IMG/VR virus record: IMGVR_UViG_3300044646_002838
Coordinates: 1-37,392 of that record
Strand: one strand, 5' to 3'
From: a virus
DNA: 37,392 bases
The position numbers and the translations under genes are program-made. Below the pieces are notes generated by a model, which saw only the letters and a program-made list of their open reading frames with translations, made no database searches and was not told where the DNA came from. Below are positions 1 through 31,654 of the stretch, one piece after another. Numbering within the stretch: position 1 is the stretch's first letter; every line of letters begins with the position of its first letter.

Positions 1-501
1 CGCCGACGGGGCTGGGACCGCATCACCGAGTTCAGCGATGTGATCAGCGGGGCCAAGACCGCCCGTGCCGGTCTGGATGCGTTGATGCGGGGTGTGCGCA
101 AGCATCACTTTGATGCGGTTCTTGTGGCCAAGCTCGACCGCCTTGGGCGCAGTTTGCCGCACTTGGCGCAGGTCATCGCCGAGATGGACGCCCACAAGAC
201 GGCTCTCGTTGTCACCACACAGGGAATCGACACGACCGAGAGCAATCCGGCTGGCCGGTTGCAGATGCACGTTCTCATGGCGGTGGCGGAGTTTGAGCGG
301 GAGATGATCCGTGAGCGCACCAAGGCTGGGCTGAAAGCGGCTGTGGCGCGGGGAAGCGCCTTGGGGCGGAAACGCAGGGCATGGACGGCAGCCGAGCTTG
401 CAATGGCCCAAGCCCACCAAGGGACTGTCAAAGAGCTCGCTGCGCTTCTCGGGTGTAGCGCCGGCACGGCCCATGCCATGATGAAAGCGGAAACGATTTG
501 A
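1..501 (+). CDS. Serine recombinase (resolvase/invertase family), N-terminus cut by window
   Basis: The reading frame is open from base 1, so the gene begins outside the window; 166 residues are visible. They match the back half of the resolvase/invertase catalytic domain: KLDRLGRS (around residues 44-51), the segment ending in AEFEREMIRERTKAGL that forms the long E helix, then a short C-terminal helix-turn-helix (TVKELAALLGCSAGTAHAMMK). The catalytic serine lies upstream and cannot be checked. The visible length fits a small resolvase or DNA invertase of about 200 residues rather than a large serine integrase. Enzymes of this family cut and rejoin DNA at short paired sites for cointegrate resolution, inversion or sometimes integration. 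It sits just before the terminase, and its TGA stop overlaps the -35 box of the terminase promoter. Which reaction it carries out here is unknown. Confidence 0.9.
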   Translation, partial: RRRGWDRITEFSDVISGAKTARAGLDALMRGVRKHHFDAVLVAKLDRLGRSLPHLAQVIAEMDAHKTALVVTTQGIDTTESNPAGRLQMHVLMAVAEFEREMIRERTKAGLKAAVARGSALGRKRRAWTAAELAMAQAHQGTVKELAALLGCSAGTAHAMMKAETI

Positions 502-526
502 CAGCGAAAGCCTGCCACGGCAACCA
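498..526 (+). promoter_or_regulatory. Promoter P1 (TTGACAGCG family), upstream of terminase
   Basis: TTGACA at 498-503 continues as the family 9-mer TTGACAGCG (498-506). A 17-base spacer leads to a weak -10 position, CAACCA, at 521-526. This is the poorest -10 of the five family members. The terminase ATG lies only six bases past the -10 position, so a transcript from here would be nearly leaderless. Confidence 0.5.
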
Positions 527-536
527 TGATCCATGG
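524..536. repeat. 13-base palindrome (5-3-5) overlapping P1 -10 and terminase start
   Basis: CCATG-ATC-CATGG: perfect 5-base inverted arms around a 3-base centre. It starts three bases into the -10 box and includes the terminase start codon. Palindromes of the same geometry but different sequence lie at 2432, 23571 and 31642. Confidence 0.6.
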
Positions 537-2392
537 ACATGAACGACATGGTGCGATCAAACCCAGGCGCATGGTTTGAGACTTTCGGGCGCATCCGCGA
601 TACATCGGGCAAGCAGGTGACGCCGCGCATGAATGTGCTGCAACGCCGGATCAACGCGCTCTATGTGCAGCGGCTTTTGGAGCAGCGGCCCCTTCGGGCA
701 ATCGGCCTCAAGCCTCGCAAGCGGGGATTCTCGACGATGGTGGCCGCGATCCACTATGCGCAGATGCAGAATTTCGCCCACCAAGGCGTTGTCATCGGAG
801 ACAAGCTGGAGACGGCGGATGTCGTTTACCGCATGATGCAGAATTTTGCGGACAACGATGGATTCCGGAAGCATTGGGGGAGCAAACCGGATGCGACAAG
901 CGAGCGGATGCGCTTCCCGCACGGGTCGTTGCTCCTGCAAGCCACGGCGCGAGGGAAGGCTACGGCGCGCGGCATGACGCCGCAGTTCATCCACGGCACA
1001 GAGGTGGCGCACTGGGAAAGCCCCGAGGAGGCGATGGATGCTTCGATGAACGCCGTGCCGGATTCAGGGTTCAACACGGTCTTTTGGGAATCGACCCCGT
1101 TTGGCGCGGGCGAGCCGTTCGCGCAGACATGGGAAGCAGCGCGATGGCCCACGGCAGCGGAGTGTCCTGATGGGCATGAGTATTGGCGGGGATGGGAGGC
1201 GGTGTGCCCAGACCAGCCACCAAGCGGATTACGCGACCGGCTGTTCGTGCGGGTGTTTGCCGCATGGTATGAATTTGACGAGAGCGTGGTGCGTTTGACT
1301 CCCGACCAGAAGCGGGAGATTCGCGACAGCATGGACTCGGAGAGTTGGTATCGGGGCGAGCGGCGTTTGATCGAGCTCTACGGCAACGAAGGCCCAGCGG
1401 GTCAGCGATTGGGGACCGAGGTCGTGGATGCGGATGTATGGGAGCAGCTGGCATGGCGCAGGCTCACGATTAAGACCAAGTGCCGAGGGAGCGTGAGGAT
1501 TTTTGACGAGGAGCATCCGGCTGATCCGAAGTCATGCTTCCTCGCAAGCGGTCGGCAGGTGTTCGACGAAGACGGCCTGACCCACATCCAGCTGCTTTGC
1601 CGCGAGGCCCCGGCTTATGGGGATGTGAACGACCAGAGCGGGCGGGCGACTTGGAGGCCCACGACTTTGGACGCAGCGACCGTGTGGCGCTGGGAGCCGC
1701 CGAAGGTGGGTTGCCGGTATTTGATCTCGGCGGACTTGGCCGAGGGGGAAGACCAGACAAAGGGAGACAACCCGGATGCCCACTCGGCGCTTGTCTGGCG
1801 TGACGAGTATCTTGACGAGCGAGGCGTGGTGTGGCCGATCAAGCTGGCAGCGCGGGTGCGCCCACCGAACCGCATGCCCATGATCCCATTTGCAAGGCTG
1901 GTGCGGGCGCTGGCGTGGTATTACGGGAATTGCATGATCATTCCCGAGATGAACAACTCGGGCATGTCATTCATGACGGCGTTGCGGATGATGGATGGCG
2001 GGCCATGCCCCCCGATTTGGCAGCGGAGGGAACGTGATCCGCACAGCGGCACCGAGCGAGCATGGGATGGATGGAGGACTACCGATAGCTCGGAATACAA
2101 GGGAGTGAGGGCGACGATCATTTGGCACATGCACGAGTTGCTGCGGAACAAGGCGGTGGAAATCCGTTGCCCGCACATAGCGACGGAGCTGGCCGACTTC
2201 GTGGACAAGGGCGGGCGGATGGAAGCCGGGAGCGGGCACGACGACGATGTGATGAGCACGGCGATCGGGCTCTACAATATCGGGAGTGCCACAGAGTATG
2301 CGCTGGCAGTCCGGAGCGATTTCATGCCTCGGGATGTGGCCTTGCTGGAGGCTATGGATACAAGGGGCGCGATGTTGGCGATGAAATGGTGA
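533..2392 (+). CDS. terL: Terminase large subunit
   Basis: 619 aa, the size of a typical TerL. The enzyme is the ATP-driven motor and nuclease that packages DNA through the portal. A Walker-A-like loop appears near residue 60 (KPRKRGFST), an atypical form lacking a GKT. A probable Walker B region follows near 155-185 (HGTEVAHWESPEEAMD, then FWESTPFGAGEPF). The C-terminal RNase-H-like nuclease carries the expected acidic residues: ISADLAEGEDQTKGDNPDAH near residue 400, IIPEMNNSG near 465 and GSGHDDDVMSTAIG near 580. The ATG at 533 was chosen because the region from here is gene-like and promoter P1 lies directly before it. An ATG at 526 is out of frame. No small terminase is visible; it may be upstream. 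Confidence 0.9.
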   Translation: MDMNDMVRSNPGAWFETFGRIRDTSGKQVTPRMNVLQRRINALYVQRLLEQRPLRAIGLKPRKRGFSTMVAAIHYAQMQNFAHQGVVIGDKLETADVVYRMMQNFADNDGFRKHWGSKPDATSERMRFPHGSLLLQATARGKATARGMTPQFIHGTEVAHWESPEEAMDASMNAVPDSGFNTVFWESTPFGAGEPFAQTWEAARWPTAAECPDGHEYWRGWEAVCPDQPPSGLRDRLFVRVFAAWYEFDESVVRLTPDQKREIRDSMDSESWYRGERRLIELYGNEGPAGQRLGTEVVDADVWEQLAWRRLTIKTKCRGSVRIFDEEHPADPKSCFLASGRQVFDEDGLTHIQLLCREAPAYGDVNDQSGRATWRPTTLDAATVWRWEPPKVGCRYLISADLAEGEDQTKGDNPDAHSALVWRDEYLDERGVVWPIKLAARVRPPNRMPMIPFARLVRALAWYYGNCMIIPEMNNSGMSFMTALRMMDGGPCPPIWQRRERDPHSGTERAWDGWRTTDSSEYKGVRATIIWHMHELLRNKAVEIRCPHIATELADFVDKGGRMEAGSGHDDDVMSTAIGLYNIGSATEYALAVRSDFMPRDVALLEAMDTRGAMLAMKW

Positions 2393-2406
2393 CAGCTAAA
2401 AACTTC

Positions 2407-2435
2407 TTGACAGCGTGATTTCGCGAGGTTAGTTG
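2407..2435 (+). promoter_or_regulatory. Promoter P2 (TTGACAGCG family), upstream of 439-aa and giant genes
   Basis: TTGACAGCG at 2407-2415, 17 bases from the -35 hexamer to TAGTTG (2430-2435). It lies in the 66-base gap between terminase and the next gene, giving a leader of roughly 15-20 bases before the ATG at 2459. No Shine-Dalgarno sequence is seen there. Confidence 0.65.
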
Positions 2436-2444
2436 CGAAGCAAC
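2432..2444. repeat. 13-base palindrome (5-3-5) on P2 -10
   Basis: GTTGC-GAA-GCAAC, beginning at the third base of the -10 hexamer. The register is identical to the palindromes at promoters P3 and P4. Confidence 0.65.
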
Positions 2445-2458: not shown

Positions 2459-3778
2459 ATGGCATTCACACTCAATAGCAGCGAAGAAGAATTTTCCGAT
2501 CTACAGGCGCAAGAGAGTAACTACACTCCCAAAAAGCTACTTAGGCAGCAATCAGCCGCCGATGAAGAAGGTAGCAGGATGAAGGCTGCTAATGTTGAGA
2601 TCGCAAGGCAGCAAGCGGACATGACGGCGGAAGACCGGGCCATCGATAACGAATACAAAAAAGCGCAGACGCTGGCTATCCAGGCAAAATTACCGGAAAG
2701 CTACAAGCGGAAGATAACCCCTAAAAAGATCGTGCATCGCGGTTTAGATGGGAAGATAAAGGACGAAGGCGCAGACGGGCGGCAGTCGCAAGCGTTTTGG
2801 GATCAGTCAAAGCCTGGCACTCAGGCATACGGGGAGCGTATGGCACGCGCCGAGAAATTTGCCCAAGAAGACAAGGCGAGGTTTCAAAAACGAGACTCGC
2901 TGATTAAGCCCGTAAGAGACCAAGCTCTTGCAAGGAAGAAGGTTGAAGATCAAAAGCAACTTGCGATAGCTCAAGACCCCAATCGGCGATTGTCTGAGAT
3001 GCGAATGAGCGGGGTAGGTCGTCCCGGCAGGCTGAATTATGCAGAGGTGACAGGCGCAAATGGGCAAAAGGCGAGTTACACCGCGCCGACCGTTGAAGGC
3101 GGCAGAGCATATGCGGCGCAGCAAGATGCGAGGGCAGAAAAAATGGCAAGCCGAGCAGACGAGCAAATGCAATCGAGCCGACCGCAGTCGCCCATCGCTC
3201 CGAAATTTGATCCCTCAAGTGCCTTGGATCAGCAAATGGGAGCACAGGCCGCGCAAGCCATGGGGCCGACGCCTCAAATGTTGCCGAGTAGAAGCATGAT
3301 AAATCCCCAGTTGAATCCCGCTTCAACGATGGTTTCTGGATCGCAAGTTCCGCTCATGCCGCAACCCGCGCCGGTTGCAGACCCGAACGCTTCGGCAGCG
3401 ATTGCCAGTTTTAATCAGACTCAACAAAACATCACGCGGCCCTCGTCTCCTGCTCAAAACGCAAATTTGCAAAAATTGAAAGCAGGCGACAACGTGCCGA
3501 CGGTGCTTAATGTGCCAGGGCAAGTAGCAACGAGCGCCGCAGCGGGAGTGGTATCTGGAGCCAAGTCGGTTGCAGGCGCTATACAAAACACGCGCCTGAT
3601 AAATCCGAACGCAGGTCGCATAAATCCGGTGAGGCCGACTTTTGAGAGCACGACGATTGGCGGAAGCCCGATTGCCACGAGAGTGAACCCAAGCGCAGCG
3701 ACCCCTGCGAAGCCAACTGTTGCGCCAAGATTGGCTGCGCAAAGAAAAGTCAGCGGCAGCAACCCCATGGTAAATTGA
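2459..3778 (+). CDS. Uncharacterised 439-aa protein, probable virion-associated
   Basis: I do not recognise a family. Residues 1-250 are charged, helical and rich in K, Q, R, A and E, probably coiled coil. Residues 250-439 are rich in P, Q, S, A and N with low complexity. A weakly hydrophobic Ala/Gly/Val segment lies near 360-375. There is no signal peptide and no catalytic motif. It is first in the transcription unit from P2, and its stop TGA is separated from the giant gene's ATG by one base. This suggests coupled expression and possibly a joint role, such as a structural or ejected partner of the giant protein. That role is inferred from position only. Confidence 0.75.
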   Translation: MAFTLNSSEEEFSDLQAQESNYTPKKLLRQQSAADEEGSRMKAANVEIARQQADMTAEDRAIDNEYKKAQTLAIQAKLPESYKRKITPKKIVHRGLDGKIKDEGADGRQSQAFWDQSKPGTQAYGERMARAEKFAQEDKARFQKRDSLIKPVRDQALARKKVEDQKQLAIAQDPNRRLSEMRMSGVGRPGRLNYAEVTGANGQKASYTAPTVEGGRAYAAQQDARAEKMASRADEQMQSSRPQSPIAPKFDPSSALDQQMGAQAAQAMGPTPQMLPSRSMINPQLNPASTMVSGSQVPLMPQPAPVADPNASAAIASFNQTQQNITRPSSPAQNANLQKLKAGDNVPTVLNVPGQVATSAAAGVVSGAKSVAGAIQNTRLINPNAGRINPVRPTFESTTIGGSPIATRVNPSAATPAKPTVAPRLAAQRKVSGSNPMVN

Positions 3779-3779
3779 T

Positions 3780-6700
3780 ATGGCTGATTTTTTTGAAGAC
3801 GAGGAGAGTTTTGTGCCCGGCAGCAGCGCGGAAGATTATGTGGATGCAGGCGCGGAACAGGAGCCCACAGCGATCGATACTTTTTCAGGCAATACTGGGA
3901 GCGATGATTTTGCAACCATGCCGGAGCCTTCGCCGCAGCGGCGTGTGGTGGATATTGCGCCTACTCCGCCGCGAAAGCCAAGGTTGAGCGGCAATCCGGA
4001 GAGGCTTGAAGAAGACATCGCTCGGGTGGACGATTGGGTGGAGCGCACGCACCAATGGGAGGCACGGGAAGAGGCCAAGGTGCAAAAAGCGGAGTTTGAA
4101 AAGTCCCGTCGGGCGCATAATGTCCAAGCGCGACAAATCAGTGCTGCGACTGGCGCGCAGTTCAACTACGATGCGGATGGGGTGGCGCAGCCGAGGGTGA
4201 ATCCGCAGACCGGAGAGCAGGCGTTTACAAAACGCACAAGTCCGGTTCGCTACGATGATCAAGGTCGCCCATTTCAGATCATCCAAAACGAGCAAGGCAC
4301 ACAAAGCGAGCGGATCGCTGATCCTGATGCAAATGCAGACATCGGCCCCAACCCGGAAGACCCCGAAGACAGATTCATTTACCGGAAAACCAAGTTTCAA
4401 CCATGGAAAGCCATCGACCCCGAGGAGGGAATCAATTCGACAGATGGCCGAGTGGTTCGCGCCAGTGGCAAAGCGCTTTTTGATCGCGAAAAAACCACGC
4501 TCAAGCGTGAGCGCGATGAGATTTCTTTGAGCCTGCGCGACCCGGCTCGCCCTCGCCGATTGAGTCCCGAGGCCAGGCAGCAAGTGGAATCCGAATTGCA
4601 GGGGCTTTCACAAGCCGCACCACCGCCAGCGCAGGTGAAAGGCATGTTCGGTGGTGTGAATGTTGAAGCCACGGAAGCCGCAAAGCAAAAGTGGAAGGAA
4701 GGTGAGGCCTTTCGCGCCGGCCTGTTGGCCGAGAAGCAATCGTTGCTGGCAGCGGACGACGAGCGCGCCGGATTGGAGACCCGAGCCTACGAACTCGACC
4801 AGAATTTGTTCGGGCTGGAGAAAATGCCCCTCTCGCAGTTTGTGCAAGATCGCCGCCAAAAAAAAGCGCAGAGCTTGGCGGACCTTGCTCCCGAGGCAGC
4901 GCGGGCGGAAATGGAAAACCGAGGTGCGGCAATCGCCGAGGAAGACGCATCAACGGAATCGGCTATGCAAGATTTGCAGCGCCGCAGCGCCGCGCTGAAC
5001 GAGCGGACGAAAAAAGGCATCACGATTCAAGAAATGGAATCGGTCGCCGCCGAGCGCGCCGCAATCGAAGCCGACGCAGCTGGGATCAAGGAGCGCATTG
5101 CCAATCGCAACGCCGCCGCAGGGGAAATGATGCGTGGCGTGGAGGCGATCAAGGCGAAAGAAAGCTCGAAGCGCGAAGAATCCTTTGCCGAACTCGACAG
5201 GCAGGCCGCCAAGTATCCCGAGCTGGCAGAGGATGCAAAAGCTTTCCGATCCGTGGACGCGGATTACCGCAACCGCATGGCTGCAGTGCAGGAGCAACCC
5301 GAAGGTCCAGGTAAACAAGCCGCCGTCGATGCGCTCAACTCCGAATTTCAAACCAAACGCAAGGAAACCGGCTCGGCTTATGTTTCCAAATTGGAAAAAC
5401 GCATTTCTGGCGATGTCGGCGCCGCGATTGAAAAGGTGGCCGGCCCAGGTGGGGCATTAGGCTTCAAAAGCCAGATCGCTGCACTGGAAAAAGACGCAGA
5501 AATTGATCCCGACATCAAAAAAATTGCCGTAGAAGTCATCCGCAACCAAGCGGTCGATGCGTTGATTCGCTCTAACAATCTGGCCGCAGTCAAACCTGCC
5601 GTAAACCGGCCGGAGGGGCAAGATTTCAGCGACGCTTACAAAGCGGCGGGATACCTTAATCCGGAAAACCTCGAAGATCGAGCCAAGGCCGCTCAAATAC
5701 TGGAGCAAGACCCGGGATTGGGAGCCAAACTTTTTGACGGATTTGATCGCGCCATGAGCACATTTGGCGCGAGGATTTTCGGCGCAGTTTCTGTAGTTGG
5801 GAAGGCTATTTCTTACAGGCTTGGACTTGATCCCGACAATGCTTTCCGTGAAGCGTCGGAAGCCGGATACCAAGTGAAGCTCGATACGGAGAAATATCGC
5901 GAAAAATTTCGCGACCCGCGATTGGAGACCGACGACGCGCTGAACCGCTGGATTATGCCGGCCGTGTCCGAGGCTTTGCCCAACTTGGCAGGCATGGCGC
6001 TCACTGCCATTCCAGCAGTTGGCCCCGCATTGGCCGTTACTTACAATATCGGGCAACTTTACGACGAAGCCTATTCGCAGGCCTCTCAAGACGCTTCTCT
6101 TACAGAAGATCAAAAACATAACGCTGCCTCCATTTACGCGGCATTGGCTTTGCCCGCTGAGACGATTGGCGACATTGCAAGCGGCGGCATTTTTACTTCG
6201 CGCATGATCCCCAAGGCGGCAAAGCGGCAAAGCGTCGAAGCTGCTGCAAAATTCTGGTCGAAGTTTACCAATGTGGGCGAAGTGTGGGACAAGCTCCCAC
6301 CTATATTGAAACGAGGCGTGGCGATTGTTGCAGCAGGAGGCACCGAGGGGCTTACCGAAACAGCACAAGACAAAATCCTCAATGCCACCATCGAGACGAT
6401 CAAAACCGGTAACATCGGCGACTCGGTAAGCAAGGCGCTTGCTGATAACCGAGGCGCGCTGGACACTTTTATCGTTGCGTCAATAAGCGGCGGAGGCATC
6501 AAGACGCTCGAAACTGCCACGCGCACGCTCATCGAGCGCGGGCAAAACCCCGAAGAGATGGCGCGCCGATACAATGGCGTCGCCAATTCCTTCCGCTTGG
6601 AAAATGTTCTGGCATTTGCGCAGCAAACCCAATCGTCGTTTGACACTAAGGAATACAACACTCTCACTCAAGCCAGCGAGGGGTTGCTTATGCGGCTTGA

Positions 6701-7160
6701 TCGCATAAATCCAAACGACAAGGTAGCCCGCAACGATGTGGCCCGCGAATTGGCTCAGGTTGAGGCTCGCCGCCTCACGATGATTTCCGAAATTCTCGGC
6801 AAGGGCACCGTGGACCAAGCGATGGGAAGAACTCCGCAGCAGCGATCCGCAGGCACTACCCCGCCCCAAATCCGGCCCGAAAACTTTGCTGCCATGCAAG
6901 CAGAAATCGGCCAAGCCGCCCCGGAGCGCCAGGCACCACTCGCCACGGCCATCAAAATCCTTTCCGGCGCACCGATGCAGAGCCTCACAAAAGCCGAGCA
7001 AGACGCCATCAAGCCGCATGTGGCCAAGATCGGCGGGCAGACCGTGCTCACGGACGATATTTTGACGGAGCTTTCTCAAGCCTCCCCGCAGGCTGCCGCG
7101 CTTATGCAGCAGGGGAGCATCCGCGACGAGGCCACGCGGAGGCTGGAAATTCTTTCAACA
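3780..7160 (+). other. Giant protein N-terminal region: coiled coil plus hydrophobic helices
   Basis: Residues 1-660 are charged and helical with E/A/R/K heptad-like stretches. Hydrophobic segments follow: LAGMALTAIPAVGPALAV near 735-752, GVAIVAAGGTEGLTETAQ near 846-863 and FIVASISGGG near 898-907. Similar segments with a G-x-E-x-x-T-E-x-x-Q pattern are common in large phage ejection proteins. A role in crossing the cell envelope is an inference. Confidence 0.55.
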
Positions 7161-10100
7161 GAGAAAGAAGGAGGTGAAAACAATGAAAACCAAATCCTGC
7201 AACAAAGCCCCGAAAATGCCGGCCAAGGCATCCAAGGCTACCAAAACGCCGGTCAAGATGACCAAGGCGTCGGGAAGGGGCCGCTAACCCCCGGCGGAGC
7301 GGCGGGACTCCCAGCGCTCCCGCCGCTCCCAGTGGGCCGTGGCGGCGAGCTCATTTCCAAGAAAGAACGCAAGGTGGCTGATGTTATTGCCGCCCGGCTG
7401 GCCCAAGGAGGAGCCGAGCAAAATGCTGCCCGAGCTTTTTCCAATTATTTTATCAAGCGCGAGACGCTGCGGGGCTGGGGGGGCGAGAAACTGAATGCGG
7501 CCGTGAGCGAGTTTCAGAAAGCTGGAGGGTTTGAAAATCCTCAAGCGATCCTTGCCAGCGTGGATGCCTCAACCCAAACGCAACGCGCGGAGATCGACAA
7601 TTTCACGAACGAAGTTCTCAAAGGGCTCGACGCCGATCCCAAGGCCGCCGGCATCCAGCCGCAAGAGCGCGCCAAAGTGGCGAGCATTATTCGCAATCAA
7701 ATCGCGCCGTCGCTTCTCCGCTACCGCCCCGTCCTGCGAGGCATCGTTTCGTTTTTTGACAAAACCAGCGATTCCGATTTTCAAGTCAACCGCACTGAAA
7801 AGCTCTTGATCAATTCGGCGGCCATCCTTACGGCTCGCGGCAAGGATTTCTGGGCCGACACGGAAAACGCCGATCTCATCATCGATGAGGAAATCGCCCA
7901 CATCAGCCAGATCAAAGTCATTGCGGAAATCCGCCGCGAGCGCACAGGCGAAGTCGGGGCAGAAGACATGGATTTGGCGATTCGCGAAGCCGAGGAGGTT
8001 TTTTTGCAATTGCCCCAGTCTCTCCAAGAGGCCTCCCGAAAAATTTACGGCGACGAAAAAGCCACCCCAGGCCAGAGCGGCATGGAGTTCTTCCGCCAGA
8101 TGCTTCAAGGCGACATCGCCATCTCCGAAGGCCGCGTGCTCGATAGAAACGGCAAAGTGATCTCTGAGCTCGCAGTCAATGATCGTCCTTGGGTCGAAAA
8201 AATGAAGGCGATGTTTGAGCGCCTTTTCAAAGTTTTCACAAACCTTCGCGGCAACTTGGGCGCTATGCTCCGCGACGAAGGCCGTTCCGATGCCGAGGTC
8301 GAGGCCATCACCGCCCGCGTCGAGCGCATCCGCAAAGACAGCCTAAAATTTTTCCAGAATCTTAAAAAAGAGGGTGACCGCATTCGCGGTGAGGCGTATG
8401 GGCAAGAATATGCGAGGCAAACCGCTCAATACACCGCTGCCCAGCCCGGAGGAAGAGAAGGAACAGGACGAGCTACTTCTGGAGGTCTATTACCAACAGC
8501 AGCAGACGGACGCCCTGCGCCGACGCCGGGCGGAGCCTCTGGCCAGCTATCTCCTGCTCAATCACCTCTTGGACCAGATCAGGCCGCCAGGCTTGCAGAG
8601 TTAGAGAGCCGTGAGGCCGAGCGCCAAGCCCGCGAGGAGCGTGCCAAAGAGCGCCGCGCCGAGTATGTCGCCAAGCGCGCCGGAGACCTCAAAGATTACG
8701 ACAAAGTGGTGGAATCCACCCCCGAGGACGCCCGCGAGCCCGTGCGCGAACTTCTCGCACAGGCACCTTCCGGCAAAGCCGGGTATGTGCTTGCCGTCAA
8801 CCAACGCCGCCTGCCTTCCACTTGGGTGGCACTGCCCCCCGGCGTGGTGCAGACCAGCCATATCGGGCCGACTTTCCAGAAAAACCCCGAGTATGCCGGC
8901 CAAAACACCCGCGCCTACGACACCGACCCCGCCGAGCAGAACAAAGTGCGCGCCGGCGCCCTGCCAGGCGCGCTCAACGAGGATATCCTGACCTCCACCG
9001 ACCCGAGCAGCGCAAACAGCGCCCCGCAGGTCGCCATCGTCATCGATGCCGCTCCCGACGGCCAGCCCCGCGCCCGCTGGCAAGCGGCCGGAGGCAATGC
9101 CCGCGAGATGATGAGCAACCTCGCCCCGCAAGAAGATCAAGACCGATTAAGCCAGACATGGAGCGAAAAAGGCGCGCAGTTTGGATTTGAGGCTATGCCC
9201 GAGGGGTTCCGTGGCTACCGGTTCCTTGGCGTGTTTGACATCCGCACCACAGCAGGCGCGAGCGATTACCAAAAGCTTGTCGATGATTTGAACCCCGCGA
9301 CCGGCGTCGTGCAGGATGTTTCCGACCGCGCCGACTTGGATGCAAAAAACATCCCGCTCGACTTAGTCGCCGACCTCCCCGTCATGATGAGCGGCAAGCA
9401 GGCCACAGAGGCGCTTTCCCGCATCCTCACCGCTCCGGGAAACATCGTCGAGCGCAACCGCATCGAGCCGATGGTAAAAAACCCTGCGCAGGCCCAAGCC
9501 TACATGCAACGCATGATGTTTACCGCCGGACTCGGCCAGCCCAAGCTCACCAGCAAGATCGCCGATTACCAGTTGCAAAACCGCAACGCTGCCTTTGTCG
9601 AGATTGCCGCCGACGCTGCCAAGTCTGCTATCGCCCTGCGCCAAAGCGGCAGCCCAGGCATTGCCGATGCGTTTGGCGGGTTGCTTTCCAATGTCGCCGA
9701 TTACTTGGATCAAGATCGGTCGCTGAAAAGCGCGCTCGAATTGGCCGCCAGCCAGATTGAGATGGACGCCCTGGTCGGCGACACCGCGCCCGCCGTGGAA
9801 ATCACCAAGCGCCTCGTGGAATTGGTCGTCGTGGACAAGCGCGGCCGCATAAACAGCGACGCCACCAGCGAGGCCATGAAAGATTACATGGTTGCCCTTG
9901 CCAGCGGCATTTCCCGAGCGAGCGAAGACGCCGCCATGGGCGATATATTCAACGAGCAGCCCATGACGATGGCCGAGCGCATCGCCGCGATCAATGCCGC
10001 CCATCGCCGCAACGCCCAGCCCGACAGCGAGACGACGCTTTCGGCTCCCAAAAATACAAGTGCCAGAAGGATGCGCGAATTGGAGCGCAAGCGTCGCCAA

Positions 10101-13100
10101 GAGGGGCTGAACCGATACGAGAGCGACGAGCTTGCCCGATTGGAGCAATCGGCCGGCCAGCAGTTCATGGATTTCTTTGAGGACACCCGCGACCAGCGTT
10201 TCGAGTTGGAGCAGGAGGTTGAGCGCCGAGGCATCGAACGCGCGCCCGTGGAGCAAATGAGCTTTGTGCTTAATGCCCCACCCAGCCAGCAGCGTATCGA
10301 CGCAGCGGCCGCCATCAAGTCTCCTGCGGCAGTCACGCAGCAAGCCCAACAAAAAGCCCCGATCCCAGCTGAAGACGATCCTTCCAGAAAAAAATTCCAG
10401 CGCTTTTCCTCAGCGGCTTTTCAAATTCTCCAAGACGGCTTCAAAAAAGCAGTCGATGAGGATGCCTCCAACGGTTATCCGGGATTGCCAGGGTTTATGC
10501 CCACTAAGGGGCTTACGCGAGAAGAGCGGATCATTGAGGCGCATTTTGCGCAGCAAATCGCCCGCGATCCTCAAAAAACTTTGGAGGACTACATTGCGCT
10601 TTCCATTTCGGATTTTGGCGAAGAAGCCGAAGGCCGATATTTGAATGCCGACTTGGCGCGCGATGTTTACGCGCCCTATCGAAACGATCCCTCGATGCGC
10701 CCGGCTATGGAACGAGCAACGATCTCTCCCGCAGGCTACATTGCGCTCAACTTAGGGTGGAACCATTGGTTGAAAAACACCAACGCGGAAGAGCGCGGCA
10801 CCGTTGTGTTTATGGCCGGTGGCATGGCAAGCGGGAAAACCACCGCCGTGCAAAAAGCTTTCAGTTCGATAAATAAAAAAGAAAGCGCCATTTTCTTGGA
10901 TTCCGTTTTAGGAAATTTTGATCGAGCCGAGCAAATGTTAGCGCAAGTCGAAAATGCCGGATTTTCCCCATACATGGCATTTGTATTCAGGCCATTTGAA
11001 AGCGCTGCGCAAGCTGCCATCAAAAGGTTGCAATCCACAGGGCGACCCGTGCGCTTGGAGCAACTGGGCGTAGCTCACTACGACTCGCAAAAAACTTTTT
11101 TGAAGCTGTATCAAAAATACGGGCAAAGCATTCCTTTTGTTACAATTCTAAATGAAGGTTCGCTGGAGGATATTCGCCGTGAAAAAGGCGTTGACCCGTT
11201 GAGGGCCCGCGCGTATGTCAATATTGAAGATGAAACAAGAAACCAAAGAGCCACCGAAACCGAAACCCAAGGGCCCAGCGGGGGAAACCTGGGAAGAGCA
11301 ACTCGCCAGCCACAACCGGGGGATGGCGGAGTGGAAAGCCAAACACGGGGACAAAGCGCCCAAGGTCCACTAAGCGCCCTGCCGGAAGCTGCGGCCAAAA
11401 CCCGCCTCACCCAAGTTTACGCCGATTTGATCGAGTCGGCAAAGATTACAGATTGGGAAAAAACGGCCGTCCTTTATGGTTTTATCCCACCAGCCCAAAC
11501 CACCCTCTCCGCCGCCCGCTCGCGCCGGAAAGCCAGCGACAACCAGCTGGATTTCGATTTCTCCGCGCCTGCCGTGCAGGATTACAAGGCCGCGTTGGAG
11601 GCCGACGGTATCACCCACCCTGTTGCCCAAGCAGCTGCCGCCCAACAAGACATCGGCCTGCCTGCCACTGAGGCACTGGACCTTTTCGACTACAAACCCA
11701 ATGCGCCAGCAGCAAACCCGTTGACCGCGCCCGAACTCGCGCGTAGGGAAGAACAATCCGAACCGACCAATGAACAACCCGTCAACACACCCGCTGTCCG
11801 AGGAAACGCGACTCCTCGCAAACCAAATGACCCCCGAGGAACGCAAAAACCTGCGCCAGACACCGGCTTGGGAGAGTTGTTTCAATTCGTGGCTGGAATC
11901 CGAAACGCCGAGCGTGATTCAGCGGAAACTCCTTCTCGATCCGGTGTTGAGGGAGGAAGCGGAGGAGGAATTCCTGCGGTGGATGGACGGCAAGGCGATC
12001 CTGCTGTTCAACGCTCAACTCAAGGGAGCGGACGAAGTGGAAATGATGCAGGAACTCTTCCCGTATCCGGAGGATTGGGAGGACAGGGAGGACGAGGTGA
12101 TTCCAAGCGCGCTCCGCGAAGCCGCCCAAGAATTTCTCAGCCGGGTAACGGGCAACGAGTAGAGCGCCCGCCGGTCGGCAGTCCCGAGCGGAACATTTCC
12201 CTTTCCCGCGACCAAGCCCTCGCCCCGCGCGGCACGGTGGGCAAACTCCGCGCCAATCTCGCAGCGATCCGCATCATTCAAGCGCTCGACAGTGAAAAAC
12301 GGCTCGCCACCGCCGAGGAAAAGCAGGAGTTGGTGAAGTTCTCCGGCTGGGGCGCGCTTTCGCAGGTATTCGACGAAGACCGCGCGAATCAGATCGAACG
12401 CGGCGAGATCGAGCAGTTGAGAAACCAAGCCGCGAAATACCGCAGCTACGGAAACGACGAATACTACGCCAACATCGTCAAGGACTACGAGGACCGCGCC
12501 CAAGCCCTCGAAAACTGGAAGTCGAAATGGTTCGAGGCCCACAAGGAGGTGAAAGCCCTCTTGAGCGACCAAGAATACCGCGACGCCCGCCGCAGCACGA
12601 TCAATGCCCACTACACCAGCCCTGAAATCGTCGCAGGAATGTGGGACATCGTGAAGTGGATGGGATTCAAGGGCGGCAACATTCTCGAACCGGGCGCAGG
12701 TATCGGCCACTTTTTCGGCCTCATGCCAGAGGACATCGCCGACCGCAGCAAACTTTTCGGCGTGGAACTCGACGCCTACACCGCAAAAATCCTGAAGGCG
12801 CTCTACCCCGAGGCCGACATCCAGAACACAGGATTCCAGACCGCCGACCTCGCGGACAATTCCATAGACCTCGCCATCTCCAATGTGCCCTTCGCCAATG
12901 TGCCGGTGAAAGACCCCGCCTTGGAAGCCATGGGCGGCCCGGTGGGAAACCTCCACGACTACTTTTTCGGAAAAACCCTTACCAAGCTCAAGCCGGGTGG
13001 AATGCAGGTTTTCATAACCAGCGCGTTCACCATGGACAAGGGGAATCCCGAAATCCGCAAGTGGCTCTCCGAGCGCGCGGACCTCGTTGCCGCCTACCGT

Positions 13101-19100: not shown

Positions 19101-22100
19101 AACAGACCCAGTGCGCAACCCTCGCCAAATACCGCGCCCGTTCAGTCCCTTGATCCTGGACAAACCCGAATCGGCATCCCCGCCGAAGACGCATTTTCCA
19201 AAATCTCCTACGCCCCGGCGAGGGTTTGGGGTGTTCGTCGTCTCGCCGAGCGATTCGAAGCCCTCCGCAACAGCGTAGGCGGGTATCCGATCCAAGCGCC
19301 GATTTATCGCGCCGACTACGACGCCCACCAAGCGGCATTTCGCGAAGCCGCACAAGCCGCCGAGAGGCTCTACCGCGACACGCTAGACGCGGTGGATGCA
19401 GCCAACACCCGCCGCCGTGGCACGGCAGATTACCTCCTGCCGCGCCTCCCCGAAGTGCGAGAGCTTTTCACCGATGCCAACGGCCAAGTGCAACTTCTCG
19501 GCAGCCGTCCCGCGCAGTTGGAACCCGGCGAACCCCTCTTTGCCGCCTCCGGCAACCCGCAGGACGACGGCGATTTCATCGAGCCCGGCGAGTCGTTTGA
19601 TAACGACTTAAAAAATCTCCTCAACGACCTCAACGGCGTGCCTGCCGATCTCGACAACGCCGCGGCCAAACAGGAGCAGGCCGCGCTCGAAGAGGGTGGG
19701 GGGCAAAGCTACCAGGTCGGACGCCCCGATCTTGCGTTTGGAGCCAACAACCCCGATGTGCGCGGGCTGGATCAATTCTACACCGAGCGCTTCCTGCCAG
19801 AGGCCGAAGCCCAATGGGAAACCGCCGCCCGCGACATGGTGGCGAAAGATTTTGAGGGCACACGCCGCTCGATCGAGCAAGCCGGTCTCTCGGGGCAAGC
19901 GATTTCTCCGGAACTCACCAAGGCCGCCGACCAGATCGCCAACACGCTTCGCCAGAAAATGCTCCAGACGGGCAAGGATGCAGACCGGAAGGCGTTCAAT
20001 GTTTTCTGGTATTCCTATCGCGCCACCGGCACCGAGGCTGGCCGCGCGCTGGCCGCACGCCGCGACCCTTTCAAGACGCCGGCCATGCGCCACCGCGAAT
20101 TTCTCCTCGATCTCATGCTCACACCGGGCAAGAAGGACAAGGCCCGCATCGACGCCGAGCCGGACCCTGCAAAAAAAACAGCTATCATCGACAGCGTGAC
20201 CGCTGCGCTTCTTAAAAAGCTCAAAGATGCCGGAATCACGCCCGAAGACATTTTAGGCAACCGCGTGGTGGTGGGCTTGAACAACGCGGAAATTCAACGC
20301 CAGTTCCGCGCCGGCCTCACGCCCAAGCAGGCCGAGGTCTTCGATCTCCTCTTGCGCAAAAACCAGACGCCCGCGCAAATTTCCCAGCGCACCGGCATGA
20401 AGCCTGATGCGGTGGAAGCCGTTTTCACCGCATTCAAAAACCGGATGCGCCAGCAACACCTCGCCAAATTCAAAGCCGGTATCCACAAGCAGGGCGAAAC
20501 CACCTTGGGAGCCGCTCCTGCGCAGTCCGGCTTGTTTGGCGGGCAAGTCTCCGACGCCGAGGCCGAGGCTGCGTTTGACCAATGGCTCAGCGGCATGGTG
20601 GGCACGAGCGACACCAAGAAAATAGGCCGTCCCAAATTCCGCATCGACGACCCCGCTCATGTCATGCGGCTCGCCCGAGCGATCCAGAGCGCCCGAGGGG
20701 AAGCCGGTTTGGGCGATATGGCCTACGAGTGGTGGATCATGAACATTCTTTCCGGTCCGCAGACGCAAGTAACAAACATCGCGAGCAATGCGGGATTCAT
20801 CGCACTCGACAGCACGCTGCAACGCGGCATGGAGGCGTTGGTCAATGTGTTTGTGCGCGACAAAAAAGCGGCGCAGCTTGGCGAATTCAAAGCGCTCGCC
20901 CGAGGCATCCTGCCAGGCATCACCAAAGGGCTCGCCATGGCTGCCAAGGCGTGGAGCGCAGAGCAGGACTTCTACGAACACACCGTTCTCGGCACCCCGA
21001 TGGAACTTGGCCAATGGGATAAACTCGGTAACACCAGCGCCGCAATACCCGGCCAAACGGGGCGCACTGTGCGCATACCGGGCAGAGCGCTCCTGTTCGC
21101 GGATTCCTTTTTCAAGCAACTCAGCGGGCAAATGAATGTCGCAGCTTTTGCCTACCGTATGGCCAAGGCCGAGGGCCTGCGCGGGCAGGCGCTCACGACC
21201 CGCGTGGCGCAACTCTCAAAAACCCGTGGCGAGATCGTAAGCGAAAACCTGCCTTCAGCCTCCCCCTCGCAGGAGATGGTGGAATACTTTGCCCGCCAGT
21301 TGGCTCGCCGAGACCCCTCGCTCGACCCTGCCGCGCTCATGGCCAACCGCAGTAGCGAGGCGTGGGAACTCGCCCGCGAGCAAGCGGCCTACGACAGCGC
21401 TAAAAATGCGGGATGGACGGAAGACGCTTGGATTCGCGCCGTCGAAAAATCCAAGGAGATGACATTCCAGCAAGACCTCAAGCGCAGCAGCGAGGGCGGA
21501 AACCTCTTCGAAGATGCCACAGCCAAGCTCCAAGACGCACGGCTCAACAACAAGCTCATTGGCTTTTTCTTTCCGTTTGTCAGAACGCCCTACAACATTT
21601 TCCGCACCGGCATCCGCAAATCCCCAATCGGGGCCGCAAACTTCGCTTGGCAGGCCGGCAAGGGCTTTCTCGCCATGAAAGACGGCAAGGCCTTTCTCGA
21701 TGGAGACCCCACACTTGTGCGCGACATGAGCGAGCAGCTTATTGCCTGGACAGCCATGGCTCTCATTTTTGGAGCCGTGCAGGGAGATGATGATGACGAT
21801 GACAAGATGCTCCTTATTACGGGCAGCCAGCCTCGCAGCGAAGCCACGGCAGGCCTGCGCGACCTCAACACCCGCGCCACGGGAGGCGAGTATATGATCC
21901 GCATCGGCGGGCGCAACGGCATTACAATCCCCTACGGGCGCTTCGATCCGATTGCCACCGTATTGGGAACAACGACGGATTTGATCCGCTCGATCAAACG
22001 CAACGGCACCACCACCGAAAACCTCGCCAGCGTGTGGAACTACATGGTCGCGCAGACCAACTCGAAAACCTTCCTGCAAGGCATCGCCAACATTTCCACA

Positions 22101-22665: not shown

Positions 22666-23493
22666 TTACGGCTTGCCCGTGGGCTTGAGCCCAAGACTCA
22701 GTGCGGCCATCTCGTAGACTTTGAATGGCGCGTCCGGATCGTTCAGCAATGCGTGACCGGTATCCTCGATGTTTTTCCAGATTTTTTCCGCTGCCTCATG
22801 GATCGGGTGGCTGGGATCTACGGATTCAGGATACACGCGATCCTTCTTTGCTTGGCTTTCCGCAACTTGTTGTTGGAATTTTGCCTCTAATTCTGCTTCC
22901 GTAGGCGAGACCGATGATTTCGTGAAATTCTTGACCGCTTCATTAAAAATTGACGGGTTCTTTTCTGCCAGCTCTTTCAGTGGTGCCTGATTGGTCTCAA
23001 TTCGAACAACCAATCCCTGTGAAACAACTCGAATAAGCCATCCATAAAATTTGCTCCCCGCTATACGTTGAGTGTAAGTTAGAGTTCCACGAAAACTGCC
23101 TCCGCCGACAAAAAAACCTTTAACTGGAAGACTGAGCCAGCGTGATCCACTCCCATCAAGTGGAGGGGCTTGAAATTGCAGCGAATCGAATTGAGCGGTT
23201 GATTCCTGACGCTGAACATCATAGATGTAGTTTGTCTCATTGGCTTCAGACCTGGCGACGAAAAAGCATTGAACATCGTATGCTTCTTTTGGTGCTCTGA
23301 AGGAACTAAGATCCACAGCAACACCAATGTTTCTGACATCTTGAGACTGCCTCCATCCGGTATCAGTAGTGCTTCGTTCTTTATTTTTACTCTGGTTATC
23401 AGTGCGGGCTCGAATACTTGGAGTCTCAGCGGCGCGAATGGCAGTAATCAAAATGACGCTTATCACTATAAATATTGCAGTTTTTGGTTTCAC
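22666..23493 (-). CDS. Secreted protein with scaffold-like C-terminal domain (275 aa)
   Basis: A GTG start at 23493 gives a clear signal peptide (KPKTAIFIVISVILITAIRAAETP, hydrophobic core then R-A-A). Longer in-frame starts upstream exist but add a non-signal extension. Residues about 30-185 (including YDVQCFFVARSEANETNY, FYGWLIRVVSQGLVVRIETN and LAEKNPSIFNEAVKNF) resemble secreted proteins I associate with Verrucomicrobiota. The last 70 residues match the scaffold protein at 31653-32777 (FQQQVAESQAKKDRVYPES and DPDAPFKVYEMAALSLG against FQQQVSESWAKADSVYP and DADAPFKVYQMAANALG). About half of roughly 65 aligned residues are identical by eye. The gene opposes its neighbours, is more AT-rich, ends eight bases from the giant gene's stop and lacks a TTGACAGCG promoter. 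It looks like a cargo gene fused to a phage domain. Function is unknown. Confidence 0.75.
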   Translation of the reverse strand: MKPKTAIFIVISVILITAIRAAETPSIRARTDNQSKNKERSTTDTGWRQSQDVRNIGVAVDLSSFRAPKEAYDVQCFFVARSEANETNYIYDVQRQESTAQFDSLQFQAPPLDGSGSRWLSLPVKGFFVGGGSFRGTLTYTQRIAGSKFYGWLIRVVSQGLVVRIETNQAPLKELAEKNPSIFNEAVKNFTKSSVSPTEAELEAKFQQQVAESQAKKDRVYPESVDPSHPIHEAAEKIWKNIEDTGHALLNDPDAPFKVYEMAALSLGLKPTGKP

Positions 23494-23545
23494 GGTGATG
23501 AGTGTTGAGTGCTTAACGATTTTTTGGAAAGCAAAAAGAAAATAC

Positions 23546-23574
23546 TTGACAGCGAAAAACAGACGACTTAGTTC
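23546..23574 (+). promoter_or_regulatory. Promoter P3 (TTGACAGCG family), upstream of tail/glycosylation operon
   Basis: TTGACAGCG at 23546-23554 and TAGTTC at 23569-23574, spaced 17 bases. It lies upstream of, and divergent from, the minus-strand secreted-protein gene, giving a leader of roughly 30 bases before the ATG at 23613. Confidence 0.65.
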
Positions 23575-23583
23575 CAAGGGAAC
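23571..23583. repeat. 13-base palindrome (5-3-5) on P3 -10
   Basis: GTTCC-AAG-GGAAC, starting at the third base of the -10 hexamer, exactly as at P2 and P4 but with different arm bases. Confidence 0.65.
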
Positions 23584-23612
23584 GCGTTTTTTAAACATCG
23601 CAGCCCACTGCC

Positions 23613-24098
23613 ATGGCAAAAATCCTACTCGCCAACTTGAATACCGCAATCGCAAGCGTCATTGGAAAGATCAATGATGGCGTGGTGGCGGCGAGAGCTA
23701 CCGGCATCGCTTGGGCGAGGGTGCCGGAGAAGGTGGATTTTCAGGTGGAAGTGGTCACGGCCACGGAGCGCTTTACCCGCGCGCAGACCGTGAGCGGCGG
23801 CGGCGTAACCCGCGTAAGCGAGGAAGGCGAGCAGCTCACCGTGCAAGAGCAAGATCCGGCTGAAACGGTCGTGGTGGAATCCAACTTGGAGGCCACGGCG
23901 CGCGTTGAAATCTCTGCCGAATCCACTTCAGACCTTAGCACCGAGACGGGAACGGAGACGGGGACAGAGAGCGCGACCACTACAGAGACACAAACGCAAA
24001 CCCAGACTTCACAAACAAGGACATGCGATTTGTATGCTTATTATAGCCTGAGCGGGGGGTCTTTCTCAGTCCAGGACGGGAACCAAAACTTTAGCTAA
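23613..24098 (+). CDS. Uncharacterised 161-aa Thr/Glu-rich protein, probable virion component
   Basis: First gene of the operon from P3. Residues 1-110 look like a small folded domain with beta-strand-like stretches (KVDFQVEVVTATERF, ATARVEISAES). Residues 110-140 are a Thr/Glu/Gln repeat (TETGTETGTES, TQTQTQT), followed by a short Tyr/Ser-rich tail. No known motif is recognised. Five bases separate it from the next gene. The Thr-rich tail would suit O-glycosylation by the downstream glycosyltransferases, which is inference from position. Confidence 0.7.
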   Translation: MAKILLANLNTAIASVIGKINDGVVAARATGIAWARVPEKVDFQVEVVTATERFTRAQTVSGGGVTRVSEEGEQLTVQEQDPAETVVVESNLEATARVEISAESTSDLSTETGTETGTESATTTETQTQTQTSQTRTCDLYAYYSLSGGSFSVQDGNQNFS

Positions 24099-29297: not shown

Positions 29298-29299
29298 AG

Positions 29300-29373
29300 T
29301 GGTAGCAGGACATGGAATCGAACCATGAACTTCTCGTTATGAGCGAGACGAGATACCATTTCTCTATCCTGCA
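29300..29373 (-). tRNA. tRNA-Met (anticodon CAT), with some initiator-like features
   Basis: The minus-strand 74-mer folds as a complete cloverleaf. Acceptor: TGCAGGA with TCCTGCT, six pairs and a T1-T72 mismatch. Then T8 A9; D stem GAGA/TCTC around AATGGTA; anticodon stem TCTCG/CGAGA with loop CTCATAA; variable AGTT; T stem CATGG/CCATG with loop TTCGATT; discriminator A; encoded CCA. The 1-72 mismatch and A11-T24 pair are initiator traits, but the three G-C pairs of the initiator anticodon stem are absent (only two of positions 29-31 are G-C or C-G). It could be elongator Met, an initiator-like tRNA or tRNA-Ile2 (CAT with lysidine). It lies 18 bases after the portal stop and is probably co-transcribed with it. 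Confidence 0.9.
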
Positions 29374-29391
29374 GTTTGGAGGTTGCAAAAA

Positions 29392-31557
29392 TCATTGGGG
29401 TGGTGGGGACCCAGGCGCGGGTTGAGGAGCCAATAACGCGGGATCAAGCGGCTCGATGATGGAATCGGGCTGCGGCACCTTGAGGCTCTTGAGGCGCGCG
29501 CGGGAATACGGGGCCGTGCGCTCCTGAAGCGGCAGCGGTCGTGCGTAGAAATTATTGATAATGCCATCGGCAATGTTGCCGGCTTCGAGAATCTGCCGGT
29601 CGCGCGCTTGGGTGATCGAGAGGCGGATATTAAGCGAGAGGTCGCGCACATCGTCGGGCGTGAGCTCCAAAATCTCCTGCGCGCTGCCATTGAAGTAGGT
29701 GAAAACCTGCCGCTCGTTGAGATTGGTGAACGCGACTTCAACCACAGATTGCAGAGCCTCGTGGAGCGAGGGGTAGAGGCGCAAAAGGAACATGTCGAAC
29801 ATCTCCGCTCCACTGTCGCGCACTTCGTTGATGCCGGTGGCGGTATCTGCCGTGGGCAGGCCGGAGATTTGTTGGTCCGCGCCGTTGACCACGCCGCTCT
29901 TGATCTGCATGAACTGCATGAAGAGTTCCATGAGCTCGCGCAGGCCGCCGCCCTTGGTTTCAGGCAGGGTGACATAGGAAAGCGCATCTTGGGCTTTCCT
30001 GCCCTCGCGCAGCGTGTAGGTGCGCCCGTGGTTGAGCTTGAGCGCAGGATCTCGCTGGCCTTCGAGCGTGGCCCACGGCGACCAGAAGGTGACACGGCCC
30101 GACGCGCCTTCCGAAAAATTCTGCCGGTTCAGTTGCAGGTCGATAAAATCCTGCTCTGGCTCAAAATGCTCCATCGCGCCAATTCCATACCAACGGCCAT
30201 CGACTTCCATGGGGCGGATCACCGTAAAAGGCCGCAGACCACGCAGCGTGACATTGGCCGTGTAGTCGTAAAAAATAGGGGCCTTGTTGCGCCGGTCGAG
30301 CACTAGCATGATTTCCTCTTGTATGCCGTCGCCGTCGGCATCGTAGGTCAACCAACACTCGGCCAACTGCACTTTGGGATTGTTCACGCTGCCTTCGGTG
30401 TCGCGCTCGCCAAAGTCAGGCCGAGGCTGATCCTCCGCGCTCTTGGGCATATTGGAATCGCTCACCATGTTGCGCAGCAGTTCCACGGCACCTTCGATTT
30501 CCTGCCGGCGCGCATCGCCTTCGCCAAACTGGCTGCCAAACATTTGAGCAAGGTCCATCACGCTTTTGTCGTAGAGGTGCGCGACCATGTCGGCCTCGCC
30601 GGGCTGCACGCCAGGCGCGTCGAGAGGGCAAACGAAATCTTTGTAATAGCAAATGCGAGAGTCCGGCCCGCTCCAAGTTACCAGCCGCCGCACGATCTCC
30701 CCCGTGGTGTAGAGGGGCTGCGGAGGCAGAATGGTCACGCCGTCGCGCTTGAGAACCATGTTGCCGGTTTCGACGACCTGCACATCCTGAATCGGCATGC
30801 CCATTTCGTCCTGCAGTGTGACTGGTTGCTCGGCTGTTTCTGGAACGAACAAGTCGGTGTCGAGGATGTAATCGCCGTATGCGTCAAGCAAGGGCTCGCC
30901 TGCCTCATCGATCAAATAGGTGGCCGTGCGCTTGTAGACTTGGAAGCGTTCTTGGTGGGTGGTCTTCAACACGGCTTCTCCCCGCACCCACGCAAATTCC
31001 AGCGCTTGCACATGGCGTTCCTTCACCTTGCATCGCTTGGCGATATGGCGGGCATATTTTTTCACCTTGTCGGCAAGCGTGTCATCCTCCAACCCCACGC
31101 CTTCGGCGGTGAACCAGTCGTCGTCATCGGGACGCCCATAAAAAAACGTGCTGCTCTTGGCGATCATCTGCCCGCAAATGCGCTGAGAGAGCGACGCTGT
31201 GAGGTTGCTGTGCTCAAAAATCGTATCCTTCTCCACGCGGTCGGACACATGGTTGTAATACCTCGCCGTGTATTTCTCGCGCTTACCCAAAAAACTCCCC
31301 GGCTCGCATTGGATGCTGAAATCGTCGCCTGGTATCGTGCCGTGGCTGCTCACAGCCTGCCGCTTGCCCATTTGCTTCTCGATTTGATCGAGTCTTAAAA
31401 TAGCGTGCGCCACCAAAGCCTCCTCCTGGTCGCGTGTGAGCTTGTAGCCGCTCTTGAACGGCATCCGAGGACTGGAATCGCTCAGCCGCTTGGGGGCGGG
31501 TAGATTCTCTTCCAGCTTCTGCACTTGAAAACTGTCGGCGGCGTTGGTCGTGGTCAT
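29392..31557 (-). CDS. Portal protein
   Basis: 721 aa, the size of podovirus-type portals. The portal is the dodecameric ring at the head vertex through which DNA passes. Recognisable portions: the early DFSIQCEPGSFLGKREKYTA and RVEKDTIFEHSNLTASLSQR; WYGIGAMEHFEPEQDFIDLQ with LNRQNFSEGASGRVTFWSPW (near 455-495); ISGLPTADTATGINEVRDSG (near 575) followed by helical wing sequence; and a Pro-rich C-terminus. It is transcribed from P5, divergently from the scaffold gene, whereas portal is usually co-oriented with scaffold and capsid. The start at 31557 lies 17 bases past the P5 -10 box. Confidence 0.88.
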   Translation of the reverse strand: MTTTNAADSFQVQKLEENLPAPKRLSDSSPRMPFKSGYKLTRDQEEALVAHAILRLDQIEKQMGKRQAVSSHGTIPGDDFSIQCEPGSFLGKREKYTARYYNHVSDRVEKDTIFEHSNLTASLSQRICGQMIAKSSTFFYGRPDDDDWFTAEGVGLEDDTLADKVKKYARHIAKRCKVKERHVQALEFAWVRGEAVLKTTHQERFQVYKRTATYLIDEAGEPLLDAYGDYILDTDLFVPETAEQPVTLQDEMGMPIQDVQVVETGNMVLKRDGVTILPPQPLYTTGEIVRRLVTWSGPDSRICYYKDFVCPLDAPGVQPGEADMVAHLYDKSVMDLAQMFGSQFGEGDARRQEIEGAVELLRNMVSDSNMPKSAEDQPRPDFGERDTEGSVNNPKVQLAECWLTYDADGDGIQEEIMLVLDRRNKAPIFYDYTANVTLRGLRPFTVIRPMEVDGRWYGIGAMEHFEPEQDFIDLQLNRQNFSEGASGRVTFWSPWATLEGQRDPALKLNHGRTYTLREGRKAQDALSYVTLPETKGGGLRELMELFMQFMQIKSGVVNGADQQISGLPTADTATGINEVRDSGAEMFDMFLLRLYPSLHEALQSVVEVAFTNLNERQVFTYFNGSAQEILELTPDDVRDLSLNIRLSITQARDRQILEAGNIADGIINNFYARPLPLQERTAPYSRARLKSLKVPQPDSIIEPLDPALLAPQPAPGSPPPQ

Positions 31558-31574
31558 CGAAAAGGGTGCTTCGC

Positions 31575-31603
31575 TTCATAGCTTGTGTTTTTTTCGCTGT
31601 CAA
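31575..31603 (-). promoter_or_regulatory. Promoter P5 (TTGACAGCG family), minus strand, upstream of portal
   Basis: On the minus strand TTGACAGCG occupies 31603-31595 and TATGAA (31580-31575) follows the -35 hexamer by exactly 17 bases. It is the only one of the five family members without a 5-3-5 palindrome on the -10. It faces away from P4. Confidence 0.65.
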
Positions 31604-31625
31604 ATTAAAAAAATGCTTGACAGCG
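31595..31625. repeat. 9-base inverted repeat formed by divergent P4 and P5 -35 boxes
   Basis: CGCTGTCAA, 13 mostly A/T bases, TTGACAGCG. The two promoters are placed back to back. This may be simply a consequence of two divergent promoters or a shared regulatory site. Confidence 0.75.
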
Positions 31626-31645
31626 TTTCGATGCCAGGCTAATGG
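31617..31645 (+). promoter_or_regulatory. Promoter P4 (TTGACAGCG family), upstream of scaffold/capsid
   Basis: TTGACAGCG at 31617-31625 and TAATGG at 31640-31645, spaced 17 bases. The scaffold ATG (31653) begins eight bases later, so the transcript would be leaderless or nearly so. Confidence 0.65.
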
Positions 31646-31654
31646 CTTCGCCAT
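31642..31654. repeat. 13-base palindrome (5-3-5) on P4 -10 and scaffold start
   Basis: ATGGC-TTC-GCCAT, starting at the third base of the -10 hexamer and ending within the scaffold start codon. Confidence 0.65.

Follow-up and report, generated by a model that had tools for sequence, protein, structure and literature searches.

Five exact copies of the nonamer TTGACAGCG mark a family of predicted promoters in a phage record of 37,392 bases (IMG/VR record IMGVR_UViG_3300044646_002838; the window analyzed here is the entire record), and the same phages encode a predicted sigma-factor domain within a giant polyvalent protein. We see an even chance that these sites are lineage-specific, probably late promoters read by host core RNA polymerase (RNAP) carrying the phage sigma domain, with a dimer bound at a dyad that overlaps the –35 element (designated O1) and with a second, downstream palindrome (designated O2) serving as a gene-specific site. 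The points of most interest are O1 and the presence of a sigma domain in the giant protein.

A predicted promoter family heading five transcription units

The nonamer occurs at 498, 2407, 23546 and 31617 on the plus strand and at 31603 on the minus strand, as described in an earlier note on this DNA. Dinucleotide shuffles give an expectation of 0.36 copies per window, and none of 100 shuffles reached five. The note had also placed a –10 hexamer 17 bases past TTGACA at every copy, which holds for all five sites, and had each copy start a transcription unit; each does precede a gene:

498–526, plus strand: promoter A (terminase large subunit), TTGACAGCG at 498–506, weak –10 CAACCA at 521–526
2407–2435, plus strand: promoter B, TTGACAGCG at 2407–2415, –10 TAGTTG at 2430–2435
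23546–23574, plus strand: promoter C, TTGACAGCG at 23546–23554, –10 TAGTTC at 23569–23574
31617–31645, plus strand: promoter D, TTGACAGCG at 31617–31625, –10 TAATGG at 31640–31645
31575–31603, minus strand: promoter E (portal), TTGACAGCG at 31603–31595, –10 TATGAA at 31580–31575, then GCGAAGC

CAACCA at promoter A is a poor –10 element; relatives carry TAGCCT, TAGGCC, TAGGGC or TAGGGA at this place. Each site stands before a unit of its own, and between them these units account for all structural genes: the terminase gene, gene B with the giant gene, the promoter C gene with the genes after it, the portal gene on the minus strand, and gene D with a capsid candidate and two more genes.

Relatives (referred to below by our G and L numbers) were found by terminase, sigma-region, portal and capsid searches and show 53–97% portal identity. 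The arrangement TTGACAGC[G/T], 17 (sometimes 18) bases, TA is kept at orthologous starts in all relatives with at least 53% portal identity, and for this reason sequence comparison strongly supports the promoter family proposed earlier. Base counts were taken from 41 compiled sites and overstate independence because the sites are orthologues. TTGAC and the GC at positions 7–8, after the hexamer, are present in 41/41, and the –10 element has T1 in 36/41, A2 in 38/41 and T6 in 3/41. By these counts the core is a long –35 element combined with a minimal –10 element comprising little beyond TA, unlike that of sigma70: the –35 TTGACA with a ~17-base spacer is found, but a –10 TATAAT with both A2 and T6 is not. 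Such a combination would fit an alternative sigma factor better than a vegetative one.

Start codons lie 6–9 bases after the –10 element at the A and D promoters, and this spacing suggests that the mRNAs are leaderless at many of these promoters. In the window, the ATG of the terminase gene follows the –10 position by 6 bases and that of gene D by 7 bases, and both genes are probably leaderless. The promoter at L059:1161 in G034 has a tRNA-Met gene directly downstream, followed by the portal gene; since this copy serves a tRNA, the element acts in transcription and is not translational.

Two relatives depart from the common form. In G050 (L085, L093), promoters carry TTGACAGCT in place of TTGACAGCG. 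The more distant G053 (L121–L124) has about ten TTGACAGCG-N3-CGCTGTC sites (for example L122:8748, L123:19414 and L124:542, all on the minus strand), several of which show GTGTGA where the TA of the –10 element is expected and could possibly form a second promoter class.

A sigma domain in the giant protein and an upstream dyad

The giant gene takes up half of the record and lies two genes from the terminase gene:

3780–22658, plus strand: giant polyvalent protein of 6,292 residues, with a DarB-like methyltransferase/helicase region, a Zeta-toxin-like kinase, ART-PolyVal and the sigma domain
18342–18992, plus strand: sigma-factor domain in the last third of the giant protein, region 2 at ~18462–18653 and region 4 at ~18804–18947

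The protein matches PHROG 10089 ('DarB-like antirestriction') over ~1,750 residues and, like other polyvalent proteins, combines enzymatic domains of diverse kinds in a single chain encoded near virion genes; by analogy with such proteins, we infer that virions carry and inject it. Pfam regions 2 and 4 of the sigma domain both score above cut-off, TIGR02937 reaches 60.9 bits (cut-off 42.9), the PDB sequence matches are RpoS/SigA, and Foldseek with a model of the domain (pLDDT 75.6) returned sigma factors among the matches listed. The domain is present in 10/10 relatives whose record covers the region, at identities down to 38–40%, and is weakly detected in G053; the homology extends to region 2 (PF04542) in 10/10 members and to region 4 (PF04545) in 9/10. 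The giant protein of G050 also contains two sigma-region-4-like matches. Nine records with related giant proteins contain neither a sigma match nor these promoters. Among other giant phage proteins we looked for a comparable sigma domain, and the three faecal-phage matches examined proved to be free-standing or partial genes of ~250 codons. An N4-type single-subunit virion RNAP was not detected in the giant protein by Pfam and PHROGs scans, which divergent versions could escape.

Scanning dyad centers across the 41 sites, counted from the start of TTGACA, singles out only +10 and +31; at every other center, arms of at least 4 occur in no more than 3 sites. The dyad at +10 is O1, GnCAGCG-N3-CGCTGnC, whose left half is TTGACAGCG; its pairs are kept at 25, 28, 31, 16, 33, 8 and 35 of the 41 sites. 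The arms covary: GCT...AGC replaces GCG...CGC at four G050 promoters, and a G053 site reads TTGACTGCG-AAG-CGCAGTC. Several full 7-3-7 O1 dyads occur in G053, some of them without TA. The extreme conservation of the nonamer can be attributed to two overlapping duties, as a –35 element and as an O1 half-site.

Because the same phages encode the predicted sigma domain, they may bring their own promoter reader. We propose that host core RNAP with the phage sigma domain would transcribe the structural genes from these promoters. The first sigma molecules would perhaps be delivered by the virion, after which a positive loop could run through promoter B; the loop would be self-reinforcing, as in phiEco32-type phages (PMC4331800), because promoter B lies upstream of gene B (2459–3778) and of the giant gene, which begins one base later. 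A dimeric regulator on O1 would help or gate recruitment. O2 would regulate promoters B and D in a gene-specific way, whether as an operator or as a short hairpin that the DNA extrudes where it melts.

Several points weigh against this proposal. The co-occurrence of sigma domain and promoters, which is suggestive of the domain reading these promoters, tracks phage kinship, so that the two amount to a single correlated observation. The tryptophan pair with which sigma70 melts –10 DNA is missing from region 2. The window clade retains mere traces of the right half of O1, which is mostly eroded in the window, and no O1-binding protein was identified. Finally, many host vegetative sigma factors likewise read TTGACA followed by a spacer of 17 bases. 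The sites might be ordinary host promoters: the primary sigma would read TTGACA-17-TA, the phage sigma domain would have some other task, and a phage regulator would account for the nonamer extension. We regard this alternative as unlikely but by no means negligible. In its favor, the hexamer equals the universal –35 consensus and has the standard spacer, and O1 overlaps the –35 element as expected of a regulator site; however, 38/41 sites lack T at –10 position 6, and in the family of the sole linked metagenome-assembled genome (MAG), scanned in 11 genomes, TTGACA-17-TANNNT is not above the reversed control (30 versus 37). This test is weak, and the host link is one 3.2-kb contig. A scan of the host-linked MAG for TTGACAGCG gave 10 matches versus 5 in the reversed control, with no enrichment.

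A downstream palindrome at selected promoters

The four plus-strand promoters of the window each carry a perfect 13-base palindrome, confirming the earlier observation that it begins at the third or fourth base of the –10 element (base 4 at A, base 3 at B, C and D):

524–536: palindrome CCATG-ATC-CATGG (A), second arm overlapping the ATG that begins at 533; not kept outside the window clade
2432–2444: palindrome GTTGC-GAA-GCAAC (B), arms TTGC/GCAA in 7/8 orthologous promoters
23571–23583: palindrome GTTCC-AAG-GGAAC (C), not at the matching promoters of G003 and G010 (TATGTG)
31642–31654: palindrome ATGGC-TTC-GCCAT (D), which runs into the start codon at 31653

The minus-strand promoter E has no 5-bp palindrome, merely GC-GAA-GC. 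The element, O2, spans –10 to about +3, and its center lies 21 bp, or two helical turns, downstream of that of O1. The background of exact 5-3-5 palindromes is 1 per 505 positions for the window alone and 1 per 723 once the first relatives are included. When the 66 bases after each nonamer were shuffled 100,000 times, allowing any center and ±1 slack, four of five aligned palindromes were obtained in no shuffle and three in one, so the alignment in the window is not due to chance.

Relatives show enrichment at this very register, the absence of which the earlier note had named as grounds for rejection: at center +31, arms of at least 4 are found in 14/41 sites and of at least 5 in 11/41. The enrichment is concentrated at promoters B and D. 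At promoter B, the arms are accompanied by loops GAA, GCA, GGGA, GGA, AGA and TTC across orthologues, and the palindrome is still there in L010, where the gene B product is down to 36% identity. At promoter D, O2 is kept in 7/9 promoters with loops TTC, AGA, AAA and TAC, a compensatory pair change gives ATGCC-GTA-GGCAT in G034 versus ATGGC/GCCAT, and G050 has lost O2. The claim that structure rather than sequence is conserved is thus supported for B and D, with arms kept, loops varying and one compensatory change, but does not extend to the other promoters; likewise, the constant geometry that the note reported describes the four window sites and does not carry over to relatives. A 5-3-5 O2 is not present at 10/11 portal promoters, at terminase promoters outside the window clade (G048 has a 4-3-4) or at other C-type promoters, all of which keep –35 and –10. 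O2 is therefore, on comparative grounds, a real gene-specific element outside the core promoter, and a promoter dependent on a hairpin or cruciform, as the note had suggested, is not supported as a general rule, though such a role is possible at B and D.

Could O2 be a mere by-product, in which constrained –10 and start-codon contexts happen to be complementary and inheritance and chance supply the rest? The start codon does lie inside the right arm at D and A, and the A and C palindromes are confined to the window clade. However, the window shuffles gave no such alignment, no start codon lies in an arm at B or at the tRNA promoter, and the arms stay while flanking spacer and loop bases vary; we already disfavor this explanation and consider it improbable. 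An mRNA hairpin at the translation start is also unlikely, because the A and D start codons so closely follow the –10 element that most of the palindrome there is untranscribed, and one promoter serves a tRNA. Since the A and D transcripts probably begin at the start codon, O2 would work at the DNA level at these promoters.

Evidence is split between an operator and a DNA hairpin. That a dimeric repressor or activator uses O2 as its operator is a possibility we hold tentatively, and short of an even chance. The half-sites of B, D and the G034 portal promoter are alike (T[T/G]GC-N3-GC[A/C]A) with free centers, and in the distant clade (G034, G047, G048) O2 stays in register with the –35 element, at unchanged distance, even where TA has shifted by one base. 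Less easily reconciled with an operator, the arms differ within one genome (GTTGC, GTTCC, ATGGC and CCATG in the window), center-length changes of one and three bases are tolerated, and no regulator was identified.

A hairpin- or cruciform-assisted promoter resembling N4 early promoters, in which supercoiling would drive the extrusion of O2 and thereby open the DNA that is to be melted, appears distinctly unlikely to us. The span of O2, the compensatory change and the variable loop size (3; 4 in G005; 6, with the same center, in one G053 promoter), which a hairpin would tolerate, are consistent with it, as is the frequency of GNA/TNC, found in 8/13 distinct triplet-loop states versus 13–16% of other 5-3-5 palindromes in a post hoc hand count. 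A strict GNA loop rule, with the C(GNA)G-type loops of N4, is nevertheless broken by AGA, AAA, AAG, ATC and AAT, and most portal promoters and many more lack O2 yet have the core promoter. In N4, moreover, the hairpins occupy –17 to –5 of the template strand and are used by a single-subunit polymerase, an enzyme not found here. We give little credence to the fullest combination, in which the injected giant-protein sigma with a dimer at the –35 dyad would read TTGACAGC-17-TA and the start region of selected genes would be an extrudable hairpin that senses supercoiling.

Comparable systems and neighboring features

Phages phiEco32 and 7-11 use a free-standing phage sigma factor together with a small number of well-conserved promoters of low copy number, which also lie upstream of the sigma gene (PMC4331800). 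The window shares with them a podovirus-type phage, a phage-encoded sigma, low-copy conserved promoters and a promoter upstream of the sigma-bearing gene, and its portal falls in the SU10 portal family, which is related to the phiEco32/7-11 group. By contrast, the sigma here is one domain of a polyvalent protein of 6,292 residues, and the promoters, TTGACAGC[G/T]-17-TA with dyads, have another sequence. N4 promoters need a stable mini-hairpin of the GNA/TNC class (PMC4496689). Like N4, the window has a giant, probably injected protein that would control transcription and a short promoter inverted repeat with a three-base loop, frequently of the GNA type; unlike N4, it has no T7/N4-type polymerase domain detectable in the scans described above, its inverted repeat is optional rather than present at every promoter and differs in register, and its layout is the –35/–10 of sigma-type promoters. 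By uniting methyltransferase, helicase, ART and Zeta-toxin-like domains in a single chain, the giant protein resembles P1 DarB and other injected polyvalent proteins. The word sigma does not occur in a survey of polyvalent proteins (PMC5512222), which thus seems not to describe a member with a sigma domain.

As a putative regulator site within the spacer, O1 is comparable to the Q-binding element that late promoters of lambdoid phages have between –35 and –10; here, no Q-like protein was identified, and O1 is a symmetric dyad overlapping –35. If the proposed reading is true, the N4 principle of carrying transcription apparatus in the particle would extend to sigma factors, with promoter specificity rather than a polymerase being injected. 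The sites also form a defined set of promoters that by itself offers a test of whether a palindrome matters where the DNA melts, for phages of a phylum nearly devoid of promoter data; a literature search on Verrucomicrobia promoters or leaderless genes gave nothing usable. The phages are an uncultured podovirus-like group, and searches of named phages with portal and sigma sequences gave no close relative. Verrucomicrobiota are the likely host, a weakly supported assignment because the sole cellular link is one 3.2-kb contig binned as Spartobacteria.

The record encodes a truncated serine recombinase, the terminase, the giant protein, a glycosyltransferase, an SU10-type portal and a probable scaffold/capsid block. 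The genes next to the promoters are:

533–2392, plus strand: terminase large subunit gene (PHROG 2, E 1e-13)
2459–3778, plus strand: gene B, 439 residues, without a family match
23613–24098, plus strand: promoter C gene
29392–31557, minus strand: portal gene, 721 residues, SU10 portal family (Pfam PF23899, E 2e-15; PHROG 1216)
31653–32777, plus strand: gene D, 374 residues, probably scaffold-type judging from its position before the capsid candidate alone

The serine-recombinase piece that precedes the terminase gene (40–501) loses its start at the edge of the window. In G034 (L061 991–1116), just 42 residues near its C-terminal end match, so the gene before the terminase might encode a DNA-binding protein, for example a small terminase subunit. 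The tRNA-Met gene has moved: it follows the portal gene in the window (29300–29373, minus strand) and lies between the promoter and the portal gene in G034 (L059:1200–1276). Near promoter C, a minus-strand open reading frame at 22666–23655 (compare L062:15990–16202) resembles residues 240–308 of the gene D product, which suggests a degraded duplicate.

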